The notes below the pieces were generated by a model. That model saw only the letters and a list, made by a program, of their open reading frames with translations. It ran no database searches and had not been told where the DNA came from. Source: Mycobacterium marseillense (lineage in GTDB: Bacteria; Actinomycetota; Actinomycetes; Mycobacteriales; Mycobacteriaceae). Taken from it: a stretch of DNA of 64,000 nucleotides. Of the stretch, positions 23,145 through 40,688 are shown in pieces; position 1 is the stretch's first letter; each line of letters starts with the position of its first letter. A program made the position numbers and the translations under genes. The DNA lies in assembly GCF_010731675.1 (NCBI RefSeq), contig NZ_AP022584.1, forward strand, positions 4,216,001 through 4,280,000, in the 5' to 3' direction.

Positions 23145-23281
23145 GAAACTAACGTGATGCAACGGGATATGTCCAGAAATACCGCTTCCTAGCGCTGAGC
23201 TGCGGAAATCCGCGGCCCGACTGCCCGGCCCGATCCCGTGGGCCGGTTTGCACAGGGCAGGCGGCGGGTAGGAACTGTTGG

Positions 23282-23665
23282 ATGGACGCTGACAACGACG
23301 TGACGGTCGATCGCGGGGCCGCCGGGGCGGCGTCGTTGGGGGATGGTGCCCCGCGCCGGAACCCGTGGCCCTGGGTGAACTGGGGATTGGCGCTGTCGAC
23401 GGTGCCCGCCGCCGCGATCGTGATGCTTTTTGCCCTCGGTGGCGTGATGAGCACCGCCGGTTGCAGCGACCGCAGTTGCCCCAACCTCGGCCACGGCGGC
23501 ATCGACTTCGGTGTCGCGTTCTACGGCGCGCCCGCGGTCGCGGTCGTCGTCATCGTCATCTCGGTCTTCACCGCCAAACACCGCGGCGGCATCGCGGTCC
23601 CGCTGCTCGGGTGGGCACTGCTGATCGCCGACGTCGCCCTCATGGCGGCGAGCGTCGCCGGTTAG
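23282..23665 (+). CDS. Small three-helix membrane protein
   Basis: I do not recognise the family. The 127-residue product has three predicted transmembrane helices: LALSTVPAAAIVMLFALGGV, FYGAPAVAVVVIVISVF, and VPLLGWALLIADVALMAAS. Between the first two lies an outside loop with two close Cys residues (TAGCSDRSCPNLGHGG), which could be disulfide-bonded or bind metal. It is divergent from the PadR gene and may be its regulatory target. Confidence 0.7.
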   Translation: MDADNDVTVDRGAAGAASLGDGAPRRNPWPWVNWGLALSTVPAAAIVMLFALGGVMSTAGCSDRSCPNLGHGGIDFGVAFYGAPAVAVVVIVISVFTAKHRGGIAVPLLGWALLIADVALMAASVAG

Positions 23666-31521: not shown

Positions 31522-31546
31522 GTTTGCCCTCGGGGCAGCCGGGTAC
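31522..31546 (+). promoter_or_regulatory. SigF-like promoter for the F420-type oxidoreductase
   Basis: GTTT (31522-31525), 15-base spacer, GGGTAC (31541-31546) closely matches the mycobacterial SigF consensus GTTT-N15-17-GGGTAT. The expected transcription start falls within a few bases of the ATG at 31557, so the mRNA may be nearly leaderless. Confidence 0.65.
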
Positions 31547-31556
31547 CCAACTGCGC

Positions 31557-32543
31557 ATGACCAATTTTGGCTACACTTTGATGACCGAACAGAGTGGACC
31601 CAAAGAGCTTGTCCAGTATGCCATTTCGGCCGAACAGCGCGGTTTCGACTTTCACGTCTGCAGTGATCACTTCTCACCGTGGCTCAGCTCGCAGGGACAC
31701 GCGCCCAACGCCTGGACGGTTCTGGGGGCGGTGGCGCAGGCCACCGAACGGGTGGACCTCTACACCTATGTGACGTGTCCGACGATGCGGTATCACCCCG
31801 CCATCGTCGCCCAGCAGGCCGCGACCGTGCAGATCCTGTCCGACGGCCGGTTCACCCTGGGCCTGGGCAGTGGGGAAAACCTCAACGAGCACGTCGTCGG
31901 CAAGGGCTGGCCGGCCGTCACCCGTCGCCAGGACATGCTGCGTGAGGCCATCAAGATCATCCGGGAACTGTTCGGCGGGCAGCTGGTGGACTTCACCGGC
32001 GACTACTTCCAGGTCGACTCCGCGCGGCTGTGGGACGTGCCCGACGTCCCGGTCGGCATCGGGGTGGCCATCGGCGGCACCAAGGCGATCGACAAGTTCG
32101 CCAAGCTGGCCGACCACCTGATCGCCACCGAACCGAAGGCCGAGCTCGTCCACGGCTGGCACGGCGCCCGGCAGGCCGCCAACCTGGCCGGTGGCGGCCG
32201 GGTGATCGGCCAGATACCGGTGTGCTGGGACCCCGACCGCGACACGGCCGTCAAACGCGCGCACGATCAGTTCCGCTGGTTTGCCGGCGGCTGGAAGGTG
32301 AACGCCGACCTGCCGACCCCGGCCGGCTTTGCGGGCGCGACCCAGTTCGTCCGCCCCGAAGACGTCGCCGACACCATTCCCTGCGGCCCCGACCTCGACG
32401 CCATCGTCGAGGGCGTCCGGCCCTACTGGGAAGCCGGGTTCACCGACATCGCGCTCATCCAGATCGGCGGGGACACCCAGGAGCGGTTCCTCAAAGAGGC
32501 CGCCGAGCCGTTGCTCGCCGCGCTGCGTGAGGCAGCGAACTGA
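31557..32543 (+). CDS. LLM-class F420-dependent oxidoreductase
   Basis: 328 residues. The luciferase-like TIM-barrel fold and the closeness to F420-dependent glucose-6-phosphate-dehydrogenase-like proteins (TIGR03557 type) are seen in FHVCSDHFSPWLSSQGHAP, YVTCPTMRYHPAIVAQQAATV, FTLGLGSGENLNEHVVGKGWP and RRQDMLREAIKIIRELF. The expected cofactor is F420; the substrate is unknown. I chose the ATG at 31557 rather than 31524, since the longer form would start inside the predicted promoter. In M. tuberculosis no such gene lies between Rv3688c and Rv3687c, so the block starting here is an addition. Confidence 0.88.
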   Translation: MTNFGYTLMTEQSGPKELVQYAISAEQRGFDFHVCSDHFSPWLSSQGHAPNAWTVLGAVAQATERVDLYTYVTCPTMRYHPAIVAQQAATVQILSDGRFTLGLGSGENLNEHVVGKGWPAVTRRQDMLREAIKIIRELFGGQLVDFTGDYFQVDSARLWDVPDVPVGIGVAIGGTKAIDKFAKLADHLIATEPKAELVHGWHGARQAANLAGGGRVIGQIPVCWDPDRDTAVKRAHDQFRWFAGGWKVNADLPTPAGFAGATQFVRPEDVADTIPCGPDLDAIVEGVRPYWEAGFTDIALIQIGGDTQERFLKEAAEPLLAALREAAN

Positions 32544-33549: not shown

Positions 33550-33575
33550 GTTTGAATGCCTTGGTTTGCGGGCAT
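33550..33575 (+). promoter_or_regulatory. SigF-like promoter for the methyltransferase-CDGSH pair
   Basis: GTTT (33550-33553), 16-base spacer, GGGCAT (33570-33575). One base differs from the GGGTAT consensus. It lies about 57 bases before the GTG of the methyltransferase. Confidence 0.45.
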
Positions 33576-33631
33576 TATCCCGCCAGGCCGTGATCAGCGG
33601 CGATCCGTATTGGGTTCTCGAAAGGCCAACA

Positions 33632-34321
33632 GTGACGACCACATATCCCGAGCCCGCCGTCTTGCCCACGCAGAACGTCTATCAGCCGCAGGAGGATTCC
33701 AGACTGCTGGTCGACGTGATGCACGACACCGGTCTGATTCCGGGACGGCGAGTTCTGGACCTGTGCACCGGGAGCGGCTTCGTCGCGATCGCGGCGGCGG
33801 CGATGGGCTGCACCGACGCGACGGCCTTCGACATCTGCCCGCAGGCGGTTCGCTGCGCCCGGAGCAACGCCGCGGTTGCCGGCGTCGATGTCGACGTGCG
33901 CGAGGGGTCGTGGATAGCAGCAGTCGAGTGTGCGCCGTTCGACGTCGTGGTGTCGAACCCGCCCTACGTGCCGACGCCGCCCGGTGCCGAGCTGCAAGAA
34001 ATTTGCCCGGCCGCCGGACCGTCGTGGGCCTGGAATGCCGGCCGAGACGGACGGCTGATCCTCGACCCCCTGTGCGAGTCGGCGCCGAAGTTGTTGCGCG
34101 ACGGCGGATCCCTGCTGCTGGTGCACTCGGCGCTCGCCGGTGTCCAGCAGTCGCTGGATTCCCTCAAGTGGGCCGGTATGGACGCGCAAGTGATTGCGTC
34201 GAAATGGATTCCCTTCGGCCCGGTGATGACCTCCCGGGCGCAGTGGCTGGAAGACGTCGGCCTGATCCCGCGCGGACGCCGGGAAGAGGAACTGATCGTG
34301 ATCCGGGCCGAAAAGCGATGA
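33632..34321 (+). CDS. HemK2/MTQ2-like SAM-dependent methyltransferase
   Basis: 229 residues from the GTG at 33632, preceded by AAAGG; the frame is open to 33503 but that part overlaps the promoter. The N-terminal VYQPQEDSRLLVD is typical of HemK2/MTQ2 proteins, motif I is VLDLCTGSGFVAIAAAAMG, and the catalytic NPPY motif appears as VVSNPPYVPTP. The NPPY group methylates amide or amino nitrogens, often glutamine in a GGQ loop. Here the target is unknown. It overlaps the CDGSH gene by ATGA, so the two proteins are made together. Confidence 0.85.
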   Translation: MTTTYPEPAVLPTQNVYQPQEDSRLLVDVMHDTGLIPGRRVLDLCTGSGFVAIAAAAMGCTDATAFDICPQAVRCARSNAAVAGVDVDVREGSWIAAVECAPFDVVVSNPPYVPTPPGAELQEICPAAGPSWAWNAGRDGRLILDPLCESAPKLLRDGGSLLLVHSALAGVQQSLDSLKWAGMDAQVIASKWIPFGPVMTSRAQWLEDVGLIPRGRREEELIVIRAEKR

Positions 34322-34566
34322 GCCCCACCCGTGTTCAGGTGGTTCCCAACGGGCCGGTGCTGGTATCGGGCCCGGTGCGCATCGAGATGCCCGGCGGCGA
34401 GGTCGTCGAGTCCGACCGTTTCATGGTGGCCATCTGTACCTGCCGACGCAGCGGCAGGTACCCCTTGTGCGACACCAGCCACCGCAGATGCAAGCGCCTG
34501 AACAAGACGACCGCTACGGCAGCGGCTGCCGCAACGACGTCTGATCCCGCTTCCACGACGCCATAA
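34318..34566 (+). CDS. CDGSH iron-sulfur domain protein
   Basis: 82 residues; too short for many gene callers. The motif CTCRRSGRYPLCDTSH matches C-x-C-x2-S-x3-P-x-C-D-x3-H exactly: C40, C42, C51 and H55 bind one [2Fe-2S] cluster in the family. The N-terminal NGPVLVSGPVRIEMPGGEVV is the usual lead-in strand. CDGSH clusters can transfer electrons or clusters. The start overlaps the methyltransferase stop, and the last 53 bases overlap the 3' end of the opposite-strand di-iron oxidase gene. Confidence 0.92.
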   Translation: MSPTRVQVVPNGPVLVSGPVRIEMPGGEVVESDRFMVAICTCRRSGRYPLCDTSHRRCKRLNKTTATAAAAATTSDPASTTP

Positions 34567-35515
34567 TCGTTTCCGCCAAGCGGTTTTCGACCGCGGCGTG
34601 CGCGCGAATCCCGAAGATGACGTCCTGCTCGAGCTGTGGCTCCCTGGCGACAAGATCGCCGACCACGTCGCCGCGCACCACGTGTTCGTGAACCGCGTCG
34701 GCCTCCACGTGCTCGCTGTAGAACGTGACGCAGGCCGCCGGTGCCTGCAAACGCTCCAAGGCCCGCACCATCCGCTGGGATCCCGGCGGCGACGTAATCT
34801 CGGTCGACGCGAAATGCCCGATCGCCGCGCCGCGCAACGCGCGGTGCAGTCCGAACAGCGACATCAAATTGACCACCGCCAGCGATTCGGCGGAAACCGC
34901 GTCGACGTAACCCCAATACGTCGCGTCCAGCCCGGCCGCCGCCAGCAGATCGGCGAACAGCTGCTGATGCAGGCGCGGGCCCTGCCCGGCGCCGTACTCG
35001 TCGAACTCCACCGCCACGAAGGCCGCCTTGGCGGTGCCCATCAGGCGGGGGATGGCCCAGGCGTGCGGATCGCCCTCTTTGAGGTGATACAGCGAGCGGT
35101 GCACGAAGTATTCGCGCATCTGCTGCCACGTTCCGGTGTCACGCAGGTAATACGACGGGCCGGTGCCGTCGACGGGTTCGACTGAAATCGCCTCCATTTC
35201 GGCCGCCGCCGTCCGATCGGGCTCGATGGGCCCGACGTCGCGGCGCACCCCCGCCAAGAACACGCGCTCCAGTTCGGCGCGCAGCGTCAGCAGCGCCGGA
35301 TTCCACTCCCACGCGGGGTCGACGCCGGCGAAACCGCGGTAGTGCAGCTCGTAGCACACCGATAGCGCCAGCTGCAGATCCAGACCATAGGGGTCGGAAT
35401 CGCGTACGGATGCGCCGATGCGTGCGAACTGGTCGACCGACGGCGGGCCCGCCAGCGCGCAACGAACGGCTGTCGACAGGGGCCCGTGCGCCGCCGGCAG
35501 GACGGGTTCAGTCAT
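34514..35515 (-). CDS. Haem-oxygenase-like di-iron oxidase (iron-containing redox enzyme family)
   Basis: 333 residues from the ATG at 35515. The sequence matches the iron-containing redox enzyme (Haem_oxygenas_2) group: VAVEFDEYGAGQGPRLHQQLF, GHFASTE, and FYSEHVEADAVHEHVV. The putative ligands E147, E173, H183, E239, H269, D273 and H276 have the same spacing as the di-iron ligands I recall for the HDO domain of SznF, including the H-x3-D-x2-H helix. A di-iron oxygenase or desaturase activity is likely; the substrate is not known. It converges on the CDGSH gene with a 53-base overlap and has its own SigF-like promoter. Confidence 0.85.
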   Translation of the reverse strand: MTEPVLPAAHGPLSTAVRCALAGPPSVDQFARIGASVRDSDPYGLDLQLALSVCYELHYRGFAGVDPAWEWNPALLTLRAELERVFLAGVRRDVGPIEPDRTAAAEMEAISVEPVDGTGPSYYLRDTGTWQQMREYFVHRSLYHLKEGDPHAWAIPRLMGTAKAAFVAVEFDEYGAGQGPRLHQQLFADLLAAAGLDATYWGYVDAVSAESLAVVNLMSLFGLHRALRGAAIGHFASTEITSPPGSQRMVRALERLQAPAACVTFYSEHVEADAVHEHVVRGDVVGDLVAREPQLEQDVIFGIRAHAAVENRLAETIMASWKRDQTSLRQPLP

Positions 35516-35541
35516 GGTCGATGTGCGGGTCACGCCGGTGA

Positions 35542-35567
35542 CTACCCCTAACCGGGGCCCGGCAAAC
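35542..35567 (-). promoter_or_regulatory. SigF-like promoter for the di-iron oxidase
   Basis: On the minus strand GTTT (35567-35564), 16-base spacer, GGGTAG (35547-35542), 26 bases before the ATG. Only the last base departs from GGGTAY. It lies in the 78-base gap after the stressosome operon, so read-through from that operon is also possible. Confidence 0.6.
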
Positions 35568-35593: not shown

Positions 35594-37819
35594 CTAGCCG
35601 GATTCCGTGGGCAATTGGAAGGTGATGTCGGCGGTGGTGCCGGTGGCCGCGGTGTCGAGTTGCGTCGACTGGCTGAGCGCCCTGATCAGCGGCAAACCGC
35701 GCCCGCCGTTGACCGGGTTGGCGGCCGGCGCCTTCCACGAACCGTAATCGGTGATCCGGGTGCGCACTTCGCCGTCGCCAAGGCTGGCCTCGACCACCAT
35801 GGTGCCCGCGACGAAGCCCCGGTAGGCATGCTCGACGCAATTGGTGCAGGCCTCGTTGACGACCAGCACGATGTCGGCGGCCAGCTCATCTGTGATGTGG
35901 GCGGCGCGCAGCCAGTCCGCGAGGCGGTGTCTGATGCGAACCAATTGGTCTGCGGTGGCGTCACTTTCGATGCGCAGCGGCGTCTGGTGGTGGCGGTAGA
36001 TCACCATCGCCACATCGTCGTCATAACCACCTTCGGGCGCCAGTTCACGAAGCACCTCGTCGGCGACGACGTCCAGCGGCAATGGCATCGTCTGCGCCAG
36101 AACGTCTGCCGCGCGCTCGATTCCGTCGTCGATCGACTCGTGTTTGCGTTCCACCAGCCCATCGGTGAACAACATCAAAGTCGAGCCGGGCGGCAGCATC
36201 CGGGTGGCCTGGGGGCGCGGTTGGTCTCGGCGGACCGCCAGCGGTACCGAAGCGGCGTCGGTCAGCAGGGTCGTCGTCCCCGGCGCGGGCCCGGTGAGCA
36301 CGGCGGGCATGTGCCCGGCGTTGCTGTATTGCAGCACCCCGGTTTCGGTGTCCAGGATCGCGAGAAAGACGGTGGTGCAGTAGGCGTTCGGGATCAGCGA
36401 TGCCGCCGAGTCGAGTTGATCGAGCAGCACCGCGGGCTCGGCGCCGTTGATCAACAGCGCCCGCGCCGAACTGCGTAGCTGTCCCATGATGGCCGCGGCC
36501 GGCAGGCCGCGACCCACGCAGTCGCCGACGACGATGCCGATGCGGTGATCGCCGATCGGCAGCACGTCGTACCAGTCACCGCCGATCTCCAACGGCGGCA
36601 CCGCGGGTTCGTAGCGCACCGTGAAACCCGACGGGGGTTCCACCGGCGGGAGCATGGCGCGCTGCAACGTCAGCGACGTCTCGCGGGCGCTCTCGAACTG
36701 ACGGACGTGCTGCATGGCCAGGCTGAGATGGCTGATCAGCACGGTGACCAGCAGGCGGTCTTCGCCGCTGACCCAGCGAGGTGTGCGCAGCTCCAGCCAC
36801 AGCGCCAGGTCCCCGGTGCCGGAGAGCACCGCGACCAATCCCTGCGCCTTACCGGGATGATCGGGCGCCTCAACGGTTTTCGCCGTCAGCGGCAGCTGCT
36901 GACGCGCGTCGGTGAACGTGTGACGCAACCATGGATCCAGCTTGCGCCACGACGTTTCCGAGGGTTCGCCCGCGGCGTGGACCGTGGGGTCTCCCTCGCC
37001 GCCGGGCCACAAGACCGCGACCACGCGTTGCACATCGATTGCCGCGCGGCACTCGTCGAGCGTGATCGACAGCAACTCGTCCACGCTCTTGGCCACCGCC
37101 ACGGCCGTGGCCAGGCGCAGCACCGCGCTCTCCCGCGCCGCGAAGGCGCGTTCCGCGGTGATATCTCGCACGGTCCCGACGTAGGCGTCGCGGTCGCTGC
37201 CGGATTCCTTGACCGCGTTGATGCTCACCTTCACCCAGGCCAGATGCCCGTCACCGTGGCGTATCGGCGTTTCGTAGTCGGCCCTGCCATGGTTCATCAC
37301 CAGGCCTATTTGTTCGGCCGCCGTCTTGGTGTCGACCAGCCACGGGTGCGGCCACCGATACGGCAAACCCTCGGTGGGAAAGCCGATGATGTCGATGAAG
37401 GCGCTGTTCATTTCGATCACCGAGCCCTCGTGGTCGGCGACGAAGAATCCCTCCTGCAGCGAATTCACCAGCGCGTTGCGGAATTTGTCGCGGTCGGCCA
37501 GCCCCTCGGCGCGGGCCCGCTGTTCCGCGTAGCGCTTGTTGCCGTCGATGAACCCGCGCATGGCCACGTCGAGCGGAACCAGCAGCTGCAGCAGGAATTC
37601 CAGCGCGATCGGCCCATCGATGCGCACGTCCTTCGCGATCTCGAAAACCAGCCGGACGTGGTTCTCGACGATTTCGAGCAGGCTGACTTGATTCTGTAGG
37701 GCGGTGCGGCCCAGCTCGTATCCGATCGCCAGGCTGGCCTCGTCGCGAGCGTCCAGATAGGTCCGCAACGCGGTGGCGTACTGCGCGTGAAAGCCGTCCG
37801 TGGAGATGTCGTCGCTCAC
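35594..37819 (-). CDS. rsbU: RsbU-like phosphatase with PAS, GAF, PP2C and HATPase domains
   Basis: 741 residues. The first 95 residues look like the RsbT-binding four-helix domain of Bacillus RsbU (LRTYLDARDEASLAIGYELGR, VSLLEIVENHVRLVFEI). Then come a PAS domain (about 115-230; SLQEGFFVADHEGSVIEMN), a GAF-like region (about 235-370), an SpoIIE/PP2C phosphatase (about 400-600; IGGDWYDVLPIGDHRIGIVVGD, YSNAGHMPAVL, MLFTDGLVE, YDDDVAMVIYR), and a C-terminal GHKL kinase domain (NEACTNCVEHAYRG, GRGLPLIRAL). It therefore joins phosphatase and anti-sigma-kinase parts, as Rv1364c does. Last gene of the stressosome operon, overlapping rsbX by 4 bases. Confidence 0.9.
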   Translation of the reverse strand: MSDDISTDGFHAQYATALRTYLDARDEASLAIGYELGRTALQNQVSLLEIVENHVRLVFEIAKDVRIDGPIALEFLLQLLVPLDVAMRGFIDGNKRYAEQRARAEGLADRDKFRNALVNSLQEGFFVADHEGSVIEMNSAFIDIIGFPTEGLPYRWPHPWLVDTKTAAEQIGLVMNHGRADYETPIRHGDGHLAWVKVSINAVKESGSDRDAYVGTVRDITAERAFAARESAVLRLATAVAVAKSVDELLSITLDECRAAIDVQRVVAVLWPGGEGDPTVHAAGEPSETSWRKLDPWLRHTFTDARQQLPLTAKTVEAPDHPGKAQGLVAVLSGTGDLALWLELRTPRWVSGEDRLLVTVLISHLSLAMQHVRQFESARETSLTLQRAMLPPVEPPSGFTVRYEPAVPPLEIGGDWYDVLPIGDHRIGIVVGDCVGRGLPAAAIMGQLRSSARALLINGAEPAVLLDQLDSAASLIPNAYCTTVFLAILDTETGVLQYSNAGHMPAVLTGPAPGTTTLLTDAASVPLAVRRDQPRPQATRMLPPGSTLMLFTDGLVERKHESIDDGIERAADVLAQTMPLPLDVVADEVLRELAPEGGYDDDVAMVIYRHHQTPLRIESDATADQLVRIRHRLADWLRAAHITDELAADIVLVVNEACTNCVEHAYRGFVAGTMVVEASLGDGEVRTRITDYGSWKAPAANPVNGGRGLPLIRALSQSTQLDTAATGTTADITFQLPTESG

Positions 37820-38442
37820 GTCGAGGCCCCCCTGTGCCGCGCCGTCAGCACCATCGCATCGTCGGTTTCCTTAGCGTCCTTCCCGAGGAGTTCTTCAGCG
37901 ATGGCCACGGCGGCGGCCGAGAAGTCGATGTGGTCCAAGTAGTCTTCGGCGATTCCGTCGGTCCGCATCACGAGCAGGTCTCCGGGACGAATCGAAACCA
38001 CCTGTGCGGGCCTGATTTCCGGGATGCGGTAGCCGACGATGCCCGAGGTGATGCGTGCACTGGATCGGACGTGGACACCGGTCGGTGCCTTGGCCACCAG
38101 ATCCGCGGACACGTTGCCAACACCGGCCCACGTCAGCACATTGGTGCCAAAGTCGACCCGCGCCAACGTCATTGCGACCCCCCTGGTGCCGGCTAACACC
38201 CGGTGGCAGAGCTGAATCAAAACTTCTATCCGCTCGGAACTGGCGCGGTCGACCGTATCGATAGCACGCAGCGCGGCTTCGGCGGCAGCAGGCCCATGGC
38301 CGAGGCCGTCCACCACGCCGAAAAGCGCTGCCTCACCGTCGATGTCGACCGCGATACCGCGATCACCGGAGGTGTACTCGCTGGGCAGAGGGCGACCCGC
38401 CCTCGCCCACTCGATGGGTCCGAAACGGCCGTTTTCATGCAC
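37816..38442 (-). CDS. rsbX: RsbX-like PP2C serine/threonine phosphatase
   Basis: 208 residues. A minimal SpoIIE/PP2C phosphatase: FGVVDGLGHGPAAAEAAL carries the metal-binding Asp, NVLTWAGVGNVSADL follows, and GDLLVMRTDGIAEDY and KETDDAMVLTARH hold the later Asp ligands. In Bacillus RsbX dephosphorylates RsbR and RsbS to reset the stressosome, and the gene position right after rsbT supports that role. It overlaps rsbT by 8 bases. Confidence 0.87.
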   Translation of the reverse strand: MHENGRFGPIEWARAGRPLPSEYTSGDRGIAVDIDGEAALFGVVDGLGHGPAAAEAALRAIDTVDRASSERIEVLIQLCHRVLAGTRGVAMTLARVDFGTNVLTWAGVGNVSADLVAKAPTGVHVRSSARITSGIVGYRIPEIRPAQVVSIRPGDLLVMRTDGIAEDYLDHIDFSAAAVAIAEELLGKDAKETDDAMVLTARHRGAST

Positions 38443-38848
38443 GAGGAGGGACCCATTTCCACATCTCGATAACGGTGCCCTGGCCGACCGTGGACTCGAC
38501 GACCAACCGGTCCATCAGGCGGCGCGCGCCCGGCAACCCCATTCCCAGTCCGCGGCCGGTCGAATAGCCGTCTTCCATCGCGCGTTCGATGTCGGCGATC
38601 CCGGGCCCTTGATCCTCGGCGCGCACCACCAGGGCCTTGCGGCCGTCCCGGTCGGCCACCCCGACCCGGACGGAGCCGCGGCCCGCGTAGCTGGTGATGT
38701 TGCGCGCGATTTCGGAGATCGCGGTGGCGATCATCGTGACGTCGGTCAGCGAGAATCCCAGATCGAGGGCGAGCTGGTGTCCCGCCTTGCGGGCTTCGAC
38801 GATGTCGTCGGGATTGTCGATGGCGACGACGATATCAGCCGCCACCAT
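38435..38848 (-). CDS. rsbT: RsbT-like switch kinase
   Basis: 137 residues. A GHKL ATPase with N-box SEIARNITSYAGRGSVRVG, G1 box VRAEDQGPGIADIERAM, and a G2 loop STGRGLGMGLPGARRLMD. In stressosomes RsbT phosphorylates RsbS and RsbR, is released on stress and then binds and activates RsbU. The RsbT-binding-type domain on the phosphatase at the end of this operon fits. It overlaps rsbS by 14 bases. Confidence 0.93.
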   Translation of the reverse strand: MVAADIVVAIDNPDDIVEARKAGHQLALDLGFSLTDVTMIATAISEIARNITSYAGRGSVRVGVADRDGRKALVVRAEDQGPGIADIERAMEDGYSTGRGLGMGLPGARRLMDRLVVESTVGQGTVIEMWKWVPPRA

Positions 38849-39224
38849 CGCGCCCGATCGTCGGTTTCCGTTGCGCCAGTTGGCGATTCAGAAGAGATAA
38901 GCCCTCTTCCAGGTCCAGCGCGGTGTTCATGTCGTCGAATGCCAGGCCGAGCTGGACCATCGCGAACGCCACTTCCGGCTGCAGGCCGACGATCACCGTG
39001 TCCGCGCCGCGCAGCCGGGTCATGTGCGCGATCGTGCGCAGCGACCGGGCCGCGAAGGAATCCATGACGTCGATGGCCGTGACGTCGACGATGATGCCCT
39101 GCGCGCGGAACCGGCTGACACGTTCCATGAGGTCATAACGCAGCCGTTCGGCGTCGGAGTCTGACAGCGCGGCCTGCACCGACGCGATGAGGATCGAACC
39201 CTGTTTCAGGATCGGTACTGGCAT
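38835..39224 (-). CDS. rsbS: RsbS-like STAS protein
   Basis: 129 residues, a single STAS domain and the scaffold partner of RsbR. The phosphorylatable serine is S56 in IDVMDSFAARSLRTIA, equivalent to Ser59 of Bacillus RsbS. The start (VPILKQGSILIASVQ) is typical of the family. It begins 22 bases after the rsbR stop, and overlaps rsbT. Confidence 0.93.
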   Translation of the reverse strand: MPVPILKQGSILIASVQAALSDSDAERLRYDLMERVSRFRAQGIIVDVTAIDVMDSFAARSLRTIAHMTRLRGADTVIVGLQPEVAFAMVQLGLAFDDMNTALDLEEGLSLLNRQLAQRKPTIGRDGGG

Positions 39225-39246
39225 GCGGCGCTCGCGTTCCTAACTG

Positions 39247-40149
39247 TCAACCGGTCTGCTCGCCGGTACGAGTCACCTCGTAGCCCAGCAGTCGCTCGGC
39301 TTCCTCGATACCGCCCTGCAGGTCACCGACCGCGTTCATCTTCGACAGGTCCAGGCCGATCGTCACCAGCGTCAGCGCAATCTCGGAGGACAGGCCGGTG
39401 ATGATCACGCTGGCGCCCATCAGCCCCGACGCGTCGACGGTCTGCACCAGGTGGTTGGCCACCGTCGAGTCGATGGTCGGCACACCCGTGATGTCGATGA
39501 CCACCACCTTCGCGCGGTTGGCGCGGATGGCGCGCAGCAGCTGTTCGGTGACCTGGCGGGCGCGCTGGCTGTCCAACACTCCGATGATCGGCAGGATCAG
39601 CAACTGCTCACGCACCTGCAGCACCGGCGTCGAGAGCTCCCGGATCGCCTCCTGCTGCTGGCGGATGATGCGCTCACGTTCCTGCACGAAGCTGACCGCC
39701 ACGGTGTTGGCGATCCGGTTGGCGGCGGGCTCGTAGGCGTCCAGCACCCGGTTGAGCATCTCGAATTCGGTCTGGTACTTCTCGAACAGCGAGCGCGCCA
39801 GCACGTCGCGCAACAGCAGCACGATGCCGACGACCTCGTCGGTTTCCACGCCACGCGGGATGATGCGTTCGGACAGGTCGCGGGCGTAGGCCTGCAGCGC
39901 CTCGACGCTACCGGTCTCGAGCACCTCGACGTAGTTGTCGTAGACGGCCGTCGCTTCGGAAAAGAGCTCCTCGGGCGTCATCGCGGTGAGCAACTCTGCC
40001 TCGGTGATGCGGCGGGCCCATTCCTCCCGCAAAACGGTCCGATTCTGCCGTAGATGCTGAACGAGCTGGGGCAACAACCCCTCGCTGGAAATGCCGACGA
40101 CTTGCGCTGTGGTGCCGGTACTGTTGAAATCCGACGGCGAATCCGACAT
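39247..40149 (-). CDS. rsbR: RsbR-like stressosome sensor protein
   Basis: 300 residues from the ATG at 40149, with GGGAGG just upstream; a GTG at 40173 is less likely. The N-terminal half is an all-helical, non-haem-globin-like sensor domain (REEWARRITEAELLTAMTPEEL, then PRGVETDEVVGIVLLLRDVLARSLF). A linker (QQQEAIRELSTPVLQV) leads to a C-terminal STAS domain with VVIDITGVPTIDSTVANHLV. In Bacillus RsbRA two Thr residues are phosphorylated; the matching places here are the T of LSTPVL and the S of IDSTVA. First gene of the stressosome operon, divergent from rsfB. Confidence 0.92.
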   Translation of the reverse strand: MSDSPSDFNSTGTTAQVVGISSEGLLPQLVQHLRQNRTVLREEWARRITEAELLTAMTPEELFSEATAVYDNYVEVLETGSVEALQAYARDLSERIIPRGVETDEVVGIVLLLRDVLARSLFEKYQTEFEMLNRVLDAYEPAANRIANTVAVSFVQERERIIRQQQEAIRELSTPVLQVREQLLILPIIGVLDSQRARQVTEQLLRAIRANRAKVVVIDITGVPTIDSTVANHLVQTVDASGLMGASVIITGLSSEIALTLVTIGLDLSKMNAVGDLQGGIEEAERLLGYEVTRTGEQTG

Positions 40150-40319
40150 CTGGCCTCCCGAGTGCCCCGTCACGCCCTGCGATCTGGCAGTTCCTGTTGC
40201 GAGACTAGCCTGGGTTGTCGCGGGGCACGGGTAGAGGGCATATTCTTCTCGCAGTTCGTAACGCAGGCTAGGGTTGAACCACGCTTAAGGCACCCAAGGC
40301 CCAGGACAAAGGATTGCCA

Positions 40320-40688
40320 TTGTCAGCTCCTGATTCGATTACCACGTTGGTTGAAGACCACGACGGCGTTTCTGTGGTCAGTGTCAGCGGCGAAATCGAT
40401 TTGGTCACGGCTCCTGCCCTGGAACAGGCCATCGGCGCGGTCGTTGCGGAGAGTCCCACGGCACTGGTCATCGATCTCTCAGCGGTGGAATTCCTCGGCT
40501 CGGTCGGGCTGAAGATCCTGGCCGCGACGTACGAGAAGCTGGGCAAGGACACCGGGTTCGGTGTGGTCGCGCGCGGCCCGGCCACCCGACGGCCGATTCA
40601 CCTGACCGGTCTGGACAAGACCTTCCCGCTGTACCCGACGCTTGACGACGCGCTGACCGCGGTGCGGGACGGCAAACTCAACGGCTAG
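40320..40688 (+). CDS. rsfB: Anti-anti-sigma factor RsfB
   Basis: 122 residues from the TTG at 40320 (AAAGGA 6 bases upstream), the same length as Rv3687c. RsfB is a STAS-domain antagonist that frees SigF from its anti-sigma factor UsfX (RsbW). The switch serine lies in LSAVEFLGSVGLKILA. The TTG at 40314 would add two residues. It is divergent from rsbR with a 170-base shared upstream region, placing a SigF regulator back to back with a stressosome that could control it. Confidence 0.94.
   Translation: MSAPDSITTLVEDHDGVSVVSVSGEIDLVTAPALEQAIGAVVAESPTALVIDLSAVEFLGSVGLKILAATYEKLGKDTGFGVVARGPATRRPIHLTGLDKTFPLYPTLDDALTAVRDGKLNG

Follow-up and report, generated by a model that had tools for sequence, protein, structure and literature searches.

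A haem-oxygenase-like oxidase, a CDGSH protein and a HemK2-type methyltransferase with SigF-type promoter boxes: an apparent undescribed redox pathway of mycobacteria

A 64,000-nucleotide stretch of the 5.5 Mb genome of Mycobacterium marseillense (the whole of which we call the window) contains a gene for a haem-oxygenase-like dimetal oxidase (HDO), which faces a two-gene operon encoding a HemK2/MTQ2-type methyltransferase (MT) and a CDGSH [2Fe-2S] protein. This arrangement raises the question of whether the three genes form one system and, if so, what such a system does. As far as comparison of sequences can show, the three genes are inherited together, and the HDO gene and the MT-CDGSH operon are each preceded by a conserved SigF-type box. 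We found no paper on the combination of HDO, CDGSH protein and MT in the open-access literature that we searched (one library), and the trio looks like an undescribed redox pathway. The function that we favour, with a confidence somewhat short of even, is that the three genes make up a single general-stress redox module.

The locus and its promoter boxes

The features of the locus are as follows.

33550..33574, plus strand: SigF-type box, GTTT-N16-GGGCA, of the MT-CDGSH operon
33632..34321, plus strand: MT, GTG start, 229 amino acids
34318..34566, plus strand: CDGSH [2Fe-2S] protein, 82 amino acids; PF09360 at 58 bits; best solved relative 3tbm, E 4.6e-05
34514..34566, no strand: 53 bases shared by the coding ends of CDGSH and HDO
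34514..35533, minus strand: HDO, 333 amino acids from the ATG at 35515 or 339 amino acids from the GTG at 35533; stop at 34514
35543..35567, minus strand: SigF-type box, GTTT-N16-GGGTA, of HDO
35594..37819, minus strand: RsbU-type regulator (RsbU_N, PAS, SpoIIE phosphatase and HATPase in a Pfam scan); adjoins HDO, context only, outside the trio

An earlier note, made from the letters of the window alone, had described an oxidase gene facing a two-gene unit joined by an ATGA overlap. The coordinates and the matches to PF14518, PF09360 and TIGR00537 agree with this layout, in which MT and CDGSH overlap at 34318-34321 and the HDO gene is convergent on their operon. The same note had reported a 53-base overlap between the two transcripts; what we find is that the CDGSH and HDO reading frames overlap by that length. 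Such a coding overlap is present in 70 of 78 mycobacterial loci, but its length varies and the other eight lack it, which rules out the 53-base overlap as a fixed functional element. The closest named HDO locus is that of Mycobacterium sp. 852002-10029, at 95% identity.

The earlier note did not mention the two SigF-type boxes, although positions 33550 and 35567, the limits of the stretch that it picked out, are their first bases. We scanned 80 mycobacterial loci for the pattern GTTT-N14-17-GGG[T/C]A within 150 nucleotides upstream of genes. It precedes 61 of 80 HDO genes and 72 of 77 MT genes, compared with 1.7% of random windows from the same loci. The operon-internal CDGSH gene never has a box (0 of 78), and boxes are rare upstream of a DJ-1 gene (2 of 69) and a phosphatase gene (1 of 66). 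The window itself contains four strict boxes, an unremarkable number given the 2.07 expected after shuffling; it is conservation across loci, and not this number, that argues for the boxes. Boxes also turned up outside mycobacteria, in a scan without a chance control, and are not used as evidence. Among the 64 loci with an HDO box (GGGAA also being allowed), the first in-frame start lies 9 nucleotides downstream in 45, 10 nucleotides after the box in 6 and 3-4 nucleotides after it in 13. In the window, the GTG at 35533 follows the box by 9 nucleotides and is a likely, though not proved, leaderless start of HDO.

The HDO box fits the SigF regulon consensus, GTTT-N14-19-GGGTA (PMC4694148). The MT box has GGGCA instead, a variant that the same paper lists for MSMEG_1770. 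In M. smegmatis, expression of MSMEG_1770-1774 is SigF-dependent, and three of these genes, MSMEG_1771 (a methylase), 1772 and 1773, are controlled by the same box type, with 1772 sharing the box of 1771 and 1773 having its own box 11 nucleotides before its start (PMC4694148). By layout, MSMEG_1771-1773 would correspond to MT, CDGSH and HDO, although sequence comparison did not confirm this: the published 32-base MSMEG string occurs in none of 396 genomes of the genus, and the MSMEG strings gave no convincing match among the 80 loci (at best 10 mismatches for 1771 and 11 for 1773).

The window also has a SigF-type box (31522-31545, plus strand) belonging to a gene for an F420-dependent LLM oxidoreductase of the TIGR03557 family (31522-32543). 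The LLM gene has such a box in 55 of 70 mycobacterial loci, so it may be a fourth redox gene under stress control.

Joint inheritance and wider distribution

All three genes are matched in 78 of the 80 mycobacterial loci, and in the other two the contig ends just after HDO. We counted the genes in 118 Mycobacterium genomes, each at least 95% complete, accepting only the long form of HDO, CDGSH at E 0.001 and MT at E 1e-35; six genomes with weak PF14518 hits alone were counted as lacking HDO. The trio is complete in 102 genomes and wholly absent from 14. The remaining two are fragmented and mixed: in one (G161), CDGSH and MT are present and HDO is a fragment at the end of a contig, and the other (G271, in 520 contigs) has CDGSH only. 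In an rpoB tree of 28 genomes, 13 without and 15 with the trio, the supported branches require the trio to have changed between presence and absence six times or more (30 genomes had been chosen; G189 gave no match, and the fragment from G271 was excluded). Among 12 unusual genomes picked by hand, 8 have HDO at a distance of 5.2-20.3 kb from CDGSH, with CDGSH still beside MT, and these 8 keep the trio; it is likewise kept in three genomes in which MT is unlinked (G023, G124 and G199).

One genome of 3.3 Mb (G219) has neither CDGSH nor MT, and all that is left of its HDO is a short piece containing a stop codon (contig C1, 2522016-2522162), which we read as decay of the module.

Beyond the genus, we surveyed 149 Actinomycetota genomes, defining a long HDO as one scoring at least 170 bits. 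A CDGSH gene lies less than 2 kb from 20 of the 24 long HDO genes. By contrast, of 40 other PF14518 genes, none has CDGSH within 5 kb and one has it within 10 kb. Together with the counts in the 118 genomes, this rules out that the trio is a chance arrangement or an annotation artefact. CDGSH is found somewhere in 21 of the 22 genomes with a long HDO, and pairs of the two genes occur both converging and running in the same direction, beyond the class Actinomycetes as well. All ten genomes with a HemK2-type gene over the cut-off have a long HDO, and 8 of the 11 such genes are within 5 kb of it. The earlier note had named the lack of a conserved neighbourhood in other genomes as a refutation; the neighbourhood proves to be conserved, and the proposal stands in so far as the genes belong together by neighbourhood, co-occurrence and promoter type. 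The electron-donor and modification roles that it gave to the CDGSH protein and MT are ones that we, too, infer.

We read 30 loci with profiles, 20 in a first set and a further 10 from plasmids. CDGSH is present in 26, MT in 11, and a GT2-type glycosyltransferase of about 340 amino acids in 8; 11 loci, one of them with a broken HDO, have neither MT nor GT2. No locus has both. If the two were independent this would have a probability of 0.013, a figure that ignores relatedness and comes from a sample that includes some short contigs and, twice, two loci of the same genome. The GT2 protein has a PDB match to 6yv7 (E 1e-4), and a Pfam scan of two members gave no match. The GT2 family had no match in the M. 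marseillense genome, in a search that was run without a positive control genome. In the eight GT2-type loci (L116, L118, L121, L122, L124, L125, L134 and L143), the glycosyltransferase gene adjoins or overlaps HDO, and its product has a hydrophobic C-terminal part.

Plasmid records gave 13 matches, all from Actinomycetota, and phage records had no match. The whole trio is found in plasmid records of Kitasatospora sp. NBC_00039, where SpoIIE phosphatase and STAS genes stand beside it, of Streptomyces sp. CA-256286, where its neighbours are genes for two SigB/SigF/SigG sigma factors, STAS and GAF-ANTAR proteins, and of Streptomyces sp. NBC_00984, whose plasmid has gas-vesicle genes. Plasmids can carry the module or parts of it. 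Of the other records, Curtobacterium plasmid pW21 (62 kb) has HDO with CDGSH, and a 103 kb plasmid of Gordonia polyisoprenivorans has an HDO split over two frames.

The three proteins and their relatives

The HDO matches PF14518 at 190.5 bits (cut-off 28.9), and this score and the helical fold of its predicted model place it in the haem-oxygenase-like superfamily. Its candidate ligands E147, E173, H183, E239, H269, D273 and H276 make up the seven-ligand set of three histidines and four carboxylates (3H/4C). The earlier note had matched their spacing to that of SznF, and rightly so: the seven residues align without gaps to chain positions 189, 215, 225, 281, 311, 315 and 318 of SznF (PDB 6m9r), and none of them varies, either in the 80 mycobacterial loci or in the 62 rows of an alignment (A4). 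The predicted model is confident, with a predicted local distance difference test score (pLDDT) of 94.5; its fold matches HrmI, SznF, RohS, FlcD, CADD and UndA, and it superposes on HrmI and SznF. Judged from alignment and superposition, the ligands probably converge on one diiron-type site, as the note had supposed.

The best fold and profile matches of the HDO are the N-oxygenases HrmI, SznF and RohS, at only 17-18% identity. HrmI, an L-lysine N-oxygenase (PDB 9n1x), belongs to an antibiotic pathway, and is among the closest folds but shares 18% identity with the window HDO. The streptozotocin N-oxygenase SznF (PDB 6vzy and 6m9r; 17% identity) stands in a different gene setting and has a C-terminal cupin domain, whereas a Pfam scan of the 333-residue window HDO gave PF14518 alone and no cupin domain. 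The function is known for about a dozen HDOs, most of which act on fatty or amino acids, and the closest solved ones act on amino-acid-type substrates (PMC13108848). Another HDO, DtpC of Acinetobacter baumannii, is tied to stress survival; we liken it to the trio HDO by description and not by sequence. The two have the same E-H spacing of 10 (E143/H153 in DtpC, E173/H183 here), but DtpC is in an operon with katE, whereas the window HDO is beside CDGSH and MT (PMC13232832).

The CDGSH protein carries its ligands as C40-x-C42...C51-D-T-S-H55, and all four are identical in 78 of 78 loci. It has a single motif, three Cys and one His, and a basic residue, R56, after the His. This places it among type 4 CDGSH (CISD) proteins, for which the rule is K or R after the His (PMC3174974), and the same features are found in the type 4 protein RsCISD (PDB 3TBM). 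Proteins of this type are predominantly actinobacterial and firmicute, and the available part of PMC3174974 names no partner for them. In the mangotoxin pathway, the HDO MboA has an Fe-S redox partner of its own, MboB, which it needs for its second oxidation (PMC13185094). MboB, however, is an NAD(P)H/flavin/Fe2S2 reductase, unlike the CDGSH protein, and the available text of that paper gives no stress control.

The MT matches TIGR00537 (HemK2/MTQ2) at 108.5 bits (cut-off 87) and has the motif N109PPY112, which is kept in all 77 loci with that stretch aligned; both features assign it to the HemK2/MTQ2 family. Beyond position 182 of the HemK2 profile, the alignment with HemK2/N6AMT1/MTQ2 is by structure only. 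Its nearest relative is HemK2/N6AMT1, it is close to PrmA and PrmC, and the match list also includes AerE and Asc-Orf2. A separate PrmC scores over the cut-off elsewhere in the genome. This rules out MT as the housekeeping release-factor enzyme, and MT therefore has another target.

A possible stress function and its rivals

If the trio is a general-stress module, stress would act through SigF to switch on both transcripts, that of HDO and that of MT-CDGSH. The HDO would then activate O2 at its diiron site and oxidise, most likely N-oxygenate, an amine-bearing small molecule or peptide, and the CDGSH protein would re-reduce the HDO iron site between turnovers. MT would methylate the substrate or the product, a place that the GT2 glycosyltransferase would take in other lineages. 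Stressed or resting cells would be shielded by the product, for example from damage by oxidation or drying. A small oxidative pathway of this sort, active under stress, would fit the parts of the trio: an HDO of N-oxygenase type, a [2Fe-2S] carrier of single electrons and a group-transfer enzyme, with SigF-type promoters. We infer both the SigF regulation of this module and its chemistry; electron donation by CDGSH, the type of HDO substrate and the methylation target are put forward in the same conditional sense. The SigF-type boxes and the neighbouring regulator genes lead us to favour a general-stress role over an antibiotic-type pathway. That GT2 stands in for MT in some lineages points to a tailoring step, and the SigF-type promoters together with the analogy to DtpC suggest a protective role.

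Several observations weigh against this reading. The identity of 17-18% to HrmI, SznF and RohS does not fix the HDO reaction, and the HrmI site is 3H/3C (PMC13108848) as opposed to the seven ligands here. According to that review, none of the HDOs investigated to date requires a protein effector. In mycobacteria, CDGSH is linked more tightly to MT than to HDO, which lies 5-20 kb from CDGSH-MT in some of them; MT might thus be the closer partner of CDGSH, and the redox partner of CDGSH is uncertain for this reason. Joint loss is by itself no proof of linkage, since a single deletion can remove three neighbours. Across the 149 genomes, four of the 24 long HDOs lack CDGSH within 5 kb (G140, G040, the second copy in G078, and G025, where CDGSH is about 8 kb away), 32 of the 53 CDGSH-bearing genomes lack a long HDO, and 12 of the 22 genomes with a long HDO have no HemK2-type gene over the cut-off; neither partner is therefore exclusive or universal.

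The rival that survives best, although we think it unlikely, makes the HDO a DtpC-like protective oxidase, or a handler of iron or peroxide, that takes electrons from CDGSH, lowers H2O2 or binds free iron in stressed or dry cells, and yields no small-molecule product. DtpC lowers H2O2 in dried cells and supports survival of drying through its metal ligands (PMC13232832), the trio has SigF-type boxes, and M. smegmatis cells after repeated spray-drying show a rise in the cluster MSMEG_1750-1804 (PMC5445863). Yet this explanation leaves MT, and the GT2 that replaces it, without a role; the likeness to DtpC is one of description, and the authors of the DtpC study allow for a small-molecule product (PMC13232832). 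Less probable again is a protein-modifying system, with a single protein, possibly from the translation machinery, as its target: MT would methylate one of its side chains, and HDO would oxidise a different residue. The kinship of MT with HemK2/N6AMT1, PrmA and PrmC, which modify proteins, speaks for it, as does the separate PrmC, which leaves MT with some other target. On the other hand, the amino-acid-type substrates of the closest solved HDOs (PMC13108848) and the presence of natural-product NPPY enzymes, AerE and Asc-Orf2, among the MT matches point elsewhere, and replacement by GT2 fits a methylated protein poorly. That three separate stress genes merely share SigF control and a location, with no common pathway, is the least probable of these explanations: the boxed LLM gene nearby, joint loss by one deletion and the 32 genomes with CDGSH but no long HDO would suit it, but not the pairing of HDO and CDGSH in both gene orders beyond the class Actinomycetes, nor the retention of the trio where HDO is 5-20 kb away or MT is unlinked.

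Returning to the general-stress module, a bolder form of it is possible, though we hold it only tentatively and as less likely than not: the trio may include the first N-oxygenase-type HDO devoted to general stress instead of an antibiotic pathway, with a dedicated type 4 CDGSH donor and an exchangeable MT or GT2. In many Actinomycetota it would make an N-oxygenated metabolite or lipid with a protective effect, and the type 4 CDGSH proteins of actinobacteria would be given a function and a partner. It would be new for a CDGSH protein to act as dedicated donor to an HDO, and the trio joins DtpC as a second case of an HDO with a possible part in stress survival. For many SigF outputs the only listing is as conserved hypothetical proteins (PMC4694148), and the module ties together the questions of HDOs, type 4 CDGSH proteins and SigF output in a form that is testable with three proteins and three deletions.

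Two minor observations concern the surroundings. The RsbU-type protein begins a regulator-type run (35594-40688 of the window), in which the ORFs that follow it resemble HATPase and STAS proteins by eye. At some distance from the trio, a SigF-type box (23246-23270, plus strand) stands just before an ORF for a 127-residue membrane-protein-like product (start 23282; box and ORF together 23246-23665).
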